Positions 7,780-29,011 of a stretch of 39,964 bases of DNA are shown here, in pieces; position 1 is the first letter of the stretch; every line of letters starts with the position of its first letter. Both the position numbers and the translations under genes were made by a program. Location: positions 1 to 39,964 of the forward strand of contig DASXJE010000067.1 of the NCBI GenBank assembly GCA_036497565.1, read 5' to 3'. This DNA is from Mycobacteriales bacterium. GTDB lineage: Bacteria > Actinomycetota > Actinomycetes > Mycobacteriales > QHCD01. Below the pieces are notes generated by a model that was given only the letters and a program-made list of their open reading frames with translations, was not told the origin of the DNA and made no database searches.

Positions 7780-8208
7780 TCAGCCGTCGACAGCGGGGGG
7801 GCTGTAGCGGTACGTCGCCAGGGCGAAGATCACGAAGACGTCGAGCGCGATGATCAGCAGTGTCCAGATGGGGTAGTACGGGATGAAGAGGAAGTTGGCG
7901 ATCGCGCTGGCTCCGGCCAGCACGATTCCGACGACCCGGCCCCACGACGTTCCGGCGAGCACTGACATCCCGGCCAGGGCCACCAACACACCGAGGACGA
8001 GGTGGACCCATCCCCAGGTGAGAACGTCGAACCGGAAGAGGTTGTGCGGTGCGGAGACGTAGAACGCTCTCCGGACGACCGCCGCGATCCCGGCGAGCGC
8101 CTCGAAGACTCCGGCGATGATCATGATGACGCCGGCGAACATGACTGCGCCGGCCTTCCACGTGTCTCCGGCCGAGGCCTGCATCCGTGGTGCCGGTTGA
8201 GCAACCAT
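7780..8208 (-). CDS. Small four-helix membrane protein (DUF7144-like)
   Basis: The 142-residue protein is predicted to be integral to the membrane, with four hydrophobic segments at about 20-44, 66-84, 88-108 and 112-132. The text WKAGAVMFAGVIMIIAGVFEALAGI and LTWGWVHLVLGVLVALAGMSVL resembles the actinobacterial DUF7144 group, of unknown function. The ATG at 8208 has AAGGAG five bases upstream; the frame extends to 8295 but only into low-complexity leader. Its 5' leader contains the 168-bp inverted-repeat element at 8234-8401, so its expression may depend on that structure. The 3' end lies 42 bp before the aldo/keto reductase start. Confidence 0.85.
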   Translation of the reverse strand: MVAQPAPRMQASAGDTWKAGAVMFAGVIMIIAGVFEALAGIAAVVRRAFYVSAPHNLFRFDVLTWGWVHLVLGVLVALAGMSVLAGTSWGRVVGIVLAGASAIANFLFIPYYPIWTLLIIALDVFVIFALATYRYSPPAVDG

Positions 8209-8233
8209 GTCGACTCCTTCTCGGTGCGGCGAC

Positions 8234-8401
8234 AAGCACACCGTCGGTGACCTGTCCGAGTCCGCTGTGTCGCGGCACCGGCAGCCACACGCCACATGCT
8301 CTGCCGGTCCCCCCGTTCCGTCCGCGACGGTCCGGTGGCGCCGCCCTGGAGGTTGCGGCGCCGACCCGACCGAGGCTCAGAGAGTCACCGACGGTGTGCT
8401 T
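8234..8401. repeat. 168-bp element with perfect 18-bp terminal inverted repeats and internal hairpins
   Basis: The arms 8234-8251 (AAGCACACCGTCGGTGAC) and 8384-8401 are exact reverse complements. The pairing extends with one bulged base into GGCGA outside. Inside are three further perfect hairpins: 8277-8284 with 8301-8308 (8 bp), 8318-8322 with 8326-8330 (5 bp) and 8337-8344 with 8355-8362 (8 bp). No coding frame with good codon use lies inside. It could be a non-autonomous mobile element (no target duplication seen), or a structured leader or small RNA in front of the membrane-protein gene, whose ATG lies 26 bp away. The rest of the gap 8209-8475 shows nothing I can name. Confidence 0.6.
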
Positions 8402-8475
8402 TCGCCTACGACTAGTAACTGTCCCCGGCTGAACGGTCGCTGTCCACCACTTTGACGATCATGGTCGGTGGGGGG

Positions 8476-9723
8476 CTACGGGTGGGTGGTGATCTCCTCG
8501 CGGACCGCCGCGGCGGCGATATCGCGGCGGTACTGCGCCCCGGCGAAGGTCACGCTCCCGACCGCGGCGTAGGCCTGGGCCCGGGCGGCCGGCAGCGTCG
8601 CGGCGGTGGCCGTCACCGAGAGCACCCGGCCCCCGGCCGTCACCACGACCCCGTCGGCCCGGCGGGCGGTCCCGGCGTGCAGCACGCCCGGCCGGTCGGC
8701 GCCGTCGATCGGATCGCCCCGACGTACCGCGCCCGGATAGCCGGCCGCCGCGAGGACGACGGTCACCGCCGCGGCGTCCCGCCAGGCCAGCTGCGGGTGC
8801 TCGGCGAGCCGTCCGGTCGCGGCCGCCGCGAGCAGGCCACCCAGCGGGGTGGCGAGCAGCGCGAGGACGACCTGGGTCTCCGGGTCGCCGAACCGGGCGT
8901 TGAACTCGACCACCTTCGGCCCGTCCGCGGTCACGGCGAGACCGACGTAGAGCAGGCCCTGGAACGGGCACCCGCGGCGGGCGAGTTCGTCGACGGTGGG
9001 CGTGACGATGCGGGCGACGACGTCGTCGACGAAGCCCGGCGGCAGCCAGGAAAGCGGGCTGTAGGCGCCCATCCCGCCGGTGTTGGGTCCGGCGTCGTCG
9101 TCGCCGAGCCGCTTGAAGTCCTGCGCCGGCAACAGCGGGCGCACCGTCACGCCGTCACACACGCAGAACAGGGAGACCTCCGGGCCGGCGAGGAACTCCT
9201 CGATCACCACCGCCCCGCAGTCGGCCGCGTGCGCGAGAGCGGTGTCCCGGTCGTCGGTCACGACCACGCCCTTGCCGGCGGCCAGCCCGTCCTCCTTCAC
9301 GACGTACGGCGGCCCGAACTCGTCGAGGGCCCGGGCCGCGTCGTCGGCGGTCTGCGGGGTGTGCGCCGCGGCCGTCGGGACTCCGGCCGCCGCCATGACC
9401 TCCTTGGCGAACGCCTTTGACCCCTCGATCCGGGCCGCCGCCGCGGACGGGCCGAAGCAGTCGATCCCGACCGCCCGGACCGCATCGGCGGCGCCGGCCA
9501 CCAGGGGCACCTCGGGCCCGATGACGACCAGGTCGGCGCCGACCTCTTCGGCCAGGGCCGCGATCGCCTTCGGGTCGGCGACGTCAAGGGGGCGGGTCTC
9601 GGCGAGGACGGCGGTGCCGGCGTTGCCCGGGGCGCACACGATCGCCTCGACCGCCGGATCCGCCTGCAGAGCCAGGCACAACGCATGTTCACGCGCACCC
9701 GAGCCGACGACGAGCACCTTCAC
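8476..9723 (-). CDS. purD: Phosphoribosylamine-glycine ligase (GAR synthetase)
   Basis: PurD joins glycine to phosphoribosylamine using ATP, the second step of purine synthesis. The 415-residue protein is full length. It shows the N-domain MKVLVVGSGAREHALCLAL, the ATP-grasp segment GPPYVVKEDGLAAGKGVVV, and the signature VEFNARFGDPETQ with metal and ATP ligands. ATG 9723 is followed at once by the conserved first strand. It is 48 bp downstream of purA, on the same strand, and the two may be cotranscribed. Confidence 0.96.
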   Translation of the reverse strand: MKVLVVGSGAREHALCLALQADPAVEAIVCAPGNAGTAVLAETRPLDVADPKAIAALAEEVGADLVVIGPEVPLVAGAADAVRAVGIDCFGPSAAAARIEGSKAFAKEVMAAAGVPTAAAHTPQTADDAARALDEFGPPYVVKEDGLAAGKGVVVTDDRDTALAHAADCGAVVIEEFLAGPEVSLFCVCDGVTVRPLLPAQDFKRLGDDDAGPNTGGMGAYSPLSWLPPGFVDDVVARIVTPTVDELARRGCPFQGLLYVGLAVTADGPKVVEFNARFGDPETQVVLALLATPLGGLLAAAATGRLAEHPQLAWRDAAAVTVVLAAAGYPGAVRRGDPIDGADRPGVLHAGTARRADGVVVTAGGRVLSVTATAATLPAARAQAYAAVGSVTFAGAQYRRDIAAAAVREEITTHP

Positions 9724-14785: not shown

Positions 14786-14810
14786 CAAAACGCACTAGGA
14801 GTGCGTTTTG
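14786..14810. terminator. Palindromic terminator-like element after fba (copy 1)
   Basis: Perfect 11-bp arms CAAAACGCACT and AGTGCGTTTTG flank an AGG loop. It lies 96 bp after the fba stop on the minus strand, and its arm sequence is identical to the two elements after purC. Confidence 0.6.
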
Positions 14811-20231: not shown

Positions 20232-20289
20232 CCATGATCGTGATCGGATTCGTTCGGCGTTTCGCGGCTTCTTCCGATCACGATCATGG
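20232..20289. repeat. Perfect 17-bp inverted repeat in a divergent promoter region
   Basis: Arm CCATGATCGTGATCGGA (20232-20248) is exactly complementary to 20273-20289, with a 24-base GC-rich loop. Neighbouring genes start on either side (20172 minus, 20350 plus), so it is not placed as a terminator. It may be a dispersed palindromic (REP-like) element, or a site affecting both promoters. The rest of the 177-bp gap shows no clear promoter boxes. Confidence 0.6.
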
Positions 20290-28865: not shown

Positions 28866-29011
28866 TGACGTCACGTTCAAGCGCTCTATCCGCGTCAACG
28901 TCACGTTGACGCGGAATGGGGGCGGGGCCGGCGTACGAGAAGGCTGTGGTCGACATCGTGCGTGCTACTCGCCGATCTGGGCCGAAGATGCGAGTACGGC
29001 GCACGATGTCG
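28866..29011. repeat. Cluster of palindromes between convergent genes
   Basis: A short palindrome GCTTGA / TCAAGC (about 28863-28882) is followed by a perfect 11-bp hairpin, CCGCGTCAACG / CGTTGACGCGG (28890-28914, loop TCA). Both loops carry CGTCACGT-like text. A longer hairpin follows at 28951-28972 with 28990-29011: 12 bp paired, 3 mismatched, 7 paired, 17-base loop. The region separates the HAD gene (plus) from the SpoU gene (minus), so bidirectional termination is the simplest role. Confidence 0.55.

Follow-up and report, generated by a model that had tools for sequence, protein, structure and literature searches.

A gap in the chromosome of a Mycobacteriales bacterium (assembly GCA_036497565.1), ahead of a gene for a DUF7144 membrane protein, encloses a long inverted repeat, and raises the question of whether this segment is a mobile DNA element, part of a folded RNA, or a product of chance. 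An earlier note on the same DNA had proposed a miniature mobile element, or else a multi-branched leader RNA or small RNA. The 39,964-nt stretch of contig DASXJE010000067.1 that was analyzed is referred to below as the window. Our findings suggested that the element is most likely either a lineage-specific folded mRNA leader or fortuitous, and that neither a mobile element nor a riboswitch can be demonstrated. The genes and the translation signal around it were as follows.

7780..8208, minus strand: gene for a DUF7144 membrane protein of 142 aa, with its ATG at 8208 (Pfam PF23636, E 1.3e-41)
8476..9723, minus strand: the gene that comes before it on this strand, which we take to be purD from a reading of the sequence, with its stop at 8476 (homologues in 30 of the 30 relatives searched)
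8215..8220, minus strand: Shine-Dalgarno sequence AAGGAG, 7 nt past the stem and 6 nt ahead of the ATG (from the sequence)

The purD stop (8476) and the DUF7144 ATG (8208) are separated by 267 bp, most of which is filled by the element; it begins about 70 nt past the purD stop and lies 26 nt from the DUF7144 start. The latter distance was given correctly in the earlier note, which left the strand of the gene unsaid. As the DUF7144 gene is on the minus strand, any leader RNA would have minus-strand sequence and would read from 8406 to 8209. A promoter scan found none, and one of several AT-richer patches in the gap was located just upstream of the stem, at approximately 8406-8422. No mention of DUF7144 was found in the literature. 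A second, diverged DUF7144 gene (36% identical) was observed in the same genome at L174:3514-3966 (G000:C266), with no copy of the element nearby.

The element itself comprised the following parts, with 5' and 3' given in the minus-strand sense.

8228..8406, minus strand: the structured element as a whole, 179 nt (minus-strand z -7.44; 0 of 200 shuffles as stable)
8384..8401, minus strand: 5' arm of the perfect 18-bp repeat (from the sequence)
8234..8251, minus strand: 3' arm of the perfect 18-bp repeat (from the sequence)
8402..8406, minus strand: 5' side of an outer 5-bp stem extension, with its partner at 8228-8232 (BLAST and fold)
8228..8232, minus strand: 3' side of the outer 5-bp stem extension (BLAST and fold)
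8328..8372, minus strand: predicted hairpin A of the multi-branch loop, which includes 8337-8344/8355-8362 (fold)
8274..8311, minus strand: predicted hairpin C of the multi-branch loop, which includes 8277-8284/8301-8308 (fold)

The arm at 8234-8251, AAGCACACCGTCGGTGAC, has its perfect complement at 8384-8401, pairing over 18 of 18 bp across a spacer of 132 nt, and the exact terminal inverted repeat described in the earlier note at 8234-8401 was thus borne out. Past a single bulged base (C8233 on the plus strand), pairing continues for five more base pairs (8228-8232/8402-8406), and when the element was compared with its genome by BLAST, 8228-8251 aligned with the inverted 8384-8406 at 96% identity. 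The full unit was therefore 8228-8406, with a closing stem of 24 pairs and one bulge in the predicted fold. The 18-bp repeat spells KHTVGD on both strands, as is bound to happen with an inverted repeat of this length. An inverted coding duplication, as in the sir/cysG region, was considered and rejected, since the peptides disagree outside the repeat and the genes on either side share one orientation.

With spacers of up to 300 bp allowed, the 18-bp pair was the longest perfect inverted repeat in the window. Second-order Markov simulations (n = 200) yielded a longest repeat of 17 bp and a mean of 0.035 repeats of at least 16 bp, and 18 bp was reached in none of them. By extrapolation, about 0.3 such perfect 18-bp pairs no more than 300 bp apart would be expected by chance per 4.8-Mb genome; the repeat is therefore significant on the scale of the window and less than overwhelming on that of the genome. 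The claim of the earlier note that such pairing is improbable by chance held for the 40-kb window. Inside the arms, two perfect 8-bp hairpins were found (8277-8284/8301-8308 and 8337-8344/8355-8362), and two or more such hairpins arose in only 0.07% of interior shuffles. A third hairpin (CCGTC-CGC-GACGG, 8318-8330) has 5 bp, is of a kind common at the local GC content, and was missing from the best minus-strand fold, so that two of the three internal hairpins first described are worthy of attention and the third is ordinary.

The minus strand of the segment was predicted to fold at -120.1 kcal/mol (z -7.44), with the minimum-energy fold equal to the centroid and a frequency of 0.22, whereas the plus strand folded at -106.6 (z -6.41) into a dispersed ensemble with a frequency of 0.008. 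With the closing stem left out, the interior of 132 nt had a z of -2.7 to -3.0 on the minus strand (p 0.011 vs. shuffles) and of about -0.45 on the plus strand (p 0.30 vs. shuffles); the difference between strands reached p 0.01, which is modest, as the test was post hoc. Stability was also ranked, after regression on composition, against 180-nt fixed-grid windows from 440 kb (400 kb of genome stretches plus the window). Counted from 0, a window set exactly on the element ranked 3 (minus) and 16 (plus) of about 14,570, a placement that favors the element, since the background lay on a fixed grid; the fixed-grid window 8221-8400 ranked 42 on the minus strand. It is fair to state that the stability of the element lies in the top fraction of a percent of the sampled genome windows. 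The minus-strand fold, predicted to be far more stable than shuffles, also adjoins the ribosome-binding site, as is generally looked for in a structured leader.

REP-like intergenic palindromes are plentiful in the genome. In 400 kb of it, five inverted repeats of at least 18 bp were found, of which three belonged to dispersed palindrome families, one (L104:47-110) resembled such a family, and the fifth arose from a short coding leader present as two divergent copies. The dispersed palindrome AAAACGCACTnnGAGTGCGTTTT occurred in the window at 1374-1396, 1425-1447, and 14787-14809, was often paired, 51 bp apart, and gave 44 matches per strand genome-wide at up to two mismatches (0 for a control pattern). 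Four further palindromic families were seen in the 400-kb sample, ATGATCGTGATCGG, TCAACGTGACGTTGA, GACATCGTGCG..TACTCGCA, and CAAAACCCACTA, with members in the window at 20232-20289, 28890-28910, 28951-29011, and 13799. Of all the DNA sampled (440 kb), the most stable fold lay at L104:10418-10647 (G000:C18:30418-30647), between what we take, from a reading of the sequence, to be a sulfite/nitrite-reductase-like gene and a sirohaem-synthase-like gene. This fold is formed by an inverted pair of divergent short ORFs, both encoding VARLHVDLQ..SA.CP; its sequence had matches in 38 relatives out of 100, and peptides resembling these, e.g., VPLVARLHVDLQRVVSAAC, are encoded in L198-L200. The ORF pair looks like a conserved sulfur-gene leader peptide, although it is not of the poly-cysteine kind found in mycobacterial cys operon leaders (PMC1262725).

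The search for further copies proposed in the earlier note was carried out, and both BLAST of the DNA and a covariance model, which was built from a single sequence and so has limited reach, returned one copy in the genome (an assembly of 316 contigs). The covariance model had no match to the element in 100 relatives; its other matches, among them the dispersed repeat at 1370-1451, were short hairpins of a plain kind and were set aside. When 399 genomes from the order were searched at the DNA level, only short, GC-rich, coding matches to the interior were returned, the best of them at E 5.6e-7; at 35-65 nt and within long open frames, these weak matches were judged compositional. No relative of the element was found in phages or plasmids, and the arm alone gave isolated single matches in other genomes and viral contigs that were never paired. 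At the gathering threshold, Rfam returned nothing, and weak matches around the element (up to E 10) were unrelated, in agreement with the earlier remark that it matches no known riboswitch.

Homologous leaders before DUF7144-like genes, also proposed as a check, did not appear: among 46 DUF7144 homologues (29-62% identical), not one had a comparable structure in its upstream 270 nt. Upstream of one homologue (L068), a perfect 20-bp hairpin, CGCCATACCTCAGAGTCATA, was observed 132-174 nt before the start codon in a region with a z of -6.7; it is a simple hairpin, unrelated in sequence to the element. Within the flank examined, neither a DUF7144 gene nor such a repeat followed purD in any of 29 relatives, by which a structure kept behind purD was ruled out. 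By the reasoning of the earlier note, a single copy and a lack of conservation weaken the leader-RNA and mobile-element ideas alike. That reasoning is only partly informative here, and the non-conservation is weaker evidence than it appears, because the sole other genome of the family that was examined is without a DUF7144 gene.

A decayed or single-copy MITE-like element, inserted behind purD with 23-24-nt termini and a core of about 132 bp, its other copies lost or never made, would be consistent with the terminal inverted repeats and short non-coding core that were found (imperfect ends of 24/23 nt, interior of 132 nt), an anatomy near that of Coxiella QMITE2 (PMC10969869). The many other palindromic repeats in the genome also speak for such an origin, as does the arrangement of the region, which appears rearranged in this lineage because purD is without a following DUF7144 gene in the 29 relatives. 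However, only the one copy was detected, direct repeats that would mark a target-site duplication were absent from the boundaries of both 8228-8406 and 8234-8401, and the paired termini were found nowhere else; the three best near matches of the arm in the genome all lay in long open frames. The element is GC-rich, whereas MITEs are typically AT-rich, and a DNA element offers no reason for an interior that folds better on one strand. We did not file the element as a MITE, because multiple copies and flanking direct repeats were sought and not found, and for the same reasons, together with termini unpaired elsewhere, the miniature mobile element of the earlier note was not upheld; we regard this origin as unlikely. 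Somewhat more probable, though still doubtful, is a fortuitous inverted repeat, born of chance or mutation in a GC-rich intergenic gap and without function. The single copy, the lack of conservation, the expectation of about 0.3 perfect 18-bp pairs in a genome of this size, and the rank of the grid window (42), which is not extreme, would all agree with chance, but the five extra pairs past the bulge in combination with the two inner 8-bp hairpins, the z of the whole element, and the strand asymmetry of the interior would not.

Other explanations started from the neighboring genes or from the DNA of the arms. The element could serve as a 3'-end structure of purD, since both are on one strand and the purD stop is only about 70 nt away; it would then act either as a terminator lacking a U-tract or as a barrier to 3' exonucleases. 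With no U-run or terminator-like site, with no counterpart behind purD in 29 relatives, and with the next gene's start (26 nt) nearer than the purD stop, this role was judged quite improbable. Each arm also contains a directly readable 11-bp palindromic core, CACCG-T-CGGTG, and a pair of operators bound by a putative dimeric repressor, looping about 150 bp, could be imagined. The inverted identity, however, runs well past this core (AAGCA, AC, then GGCGA), the arrangement is absent before DUF7144 homologues, and 41 sites were found in the genome at up to two mismatches, the three closest in long open frames, all of which made such an operator pair very improbable. Only marginally less remote is a narrow regulatory RNA class, i.e., a ligand- or protein-sensing leader that controls the DUF7144 protein in one poorly sampled actinobacterial lineage.

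The reading that we tentatively prefer, at somewhat less than even confidence, is that of a lineage-specific structured 5' leader, or purD-DUF7144 intercistronic segment, of a minus-strand DUF7144 mRNA. It was favored over a mobile element because the strand of the gene folds best, and into one well-defined structure. The location of the element, immediately ahead of a good Shine-Dalgarno sequence and the start codon, also speaks for a leader, and the empty promoter scan speaks against it. The multi-branched leader RNA envisaged in the earlier note thus gained from the strand preference and lost from the single copy and the lack of conservation. In such a leader, the element would be transcribed together with the DUF7144 gene, and the ends of the segment would close as a 24-pair helix around a multi-branch loop with two strong hairpins, leaving the Shine-Dalgarno sequence 7 nt beyond the helix and mostly unpaired. 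The helix could then shield the mRNA end or provide RNase III with a long double-stranded site; the outcome would be control over how stable or abundant the DUF7144 mRNA is, or its separation from purD.

Accessibility of the Shine-Dalgarno sequence was compared among predicted transcripts. In the transcript from 8406, its mean unpaired probability was 0.70, and in transcripts starting inside an arm it was 0.39-0.40. A switch that masks the ribosome-binding site was not supported, as transcripts without the whole 5' part were similarly accessible (0.61-0.67 vs. 0.70). An effect of the 24-bp helix on mRNA stability or processing would fit these predictions better than a ribosome-binding-site switch. 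If transcribed, the element would add another very stable, lineage-specific example to the mRNA leaders of high-GC actinobacteria, and its long helix beside the ribosome-binding site could set mRNA stability. For the scanning of genomes, strong inverted repeats need to be checked for copy number, strand, and conservation.

Three kinds of known system come closest to the element. In Coxiella, QMITE2 has terminal inverted repeats of 23-29, a core of 113-145, and a transcript fold of about -113 (PMC10969869). The element resembles MITEs of this type in its length of about 180 bp, its 23-24-nt terminal inverted repeats, its very stable predicted fold, and its intergenic position, but differs in being GC-rich and present as a single copy, with no direct repeats and no related insertion sequence recognized among the near matches of the arm that were inspected. 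Actinobacterial leaders such as attenuators, the LEU element, and translational T-boxes are conserved between genera and precede genes of amino-acid metabolism or tRNA synthetases (PMC1262725). With these, the element shares a folded RNA, here predicted, ahead of a gene in a high-GC actinobacterium, while being an orphan that matches no Rfam model. Cutting by RNase III within 5' leaders is established in other systems (PMC8708148, a review). The leaders cut in this way, such as the E. coli rnc leader and substrates in Streptomyces coelicolor, have no sequence relation to the element, which is here a putative leader, but they share with it a long, near-perfect 5' stem by the ribosome-binding site, here a predicted double-stranded stem of 24 pairs with one bulge.
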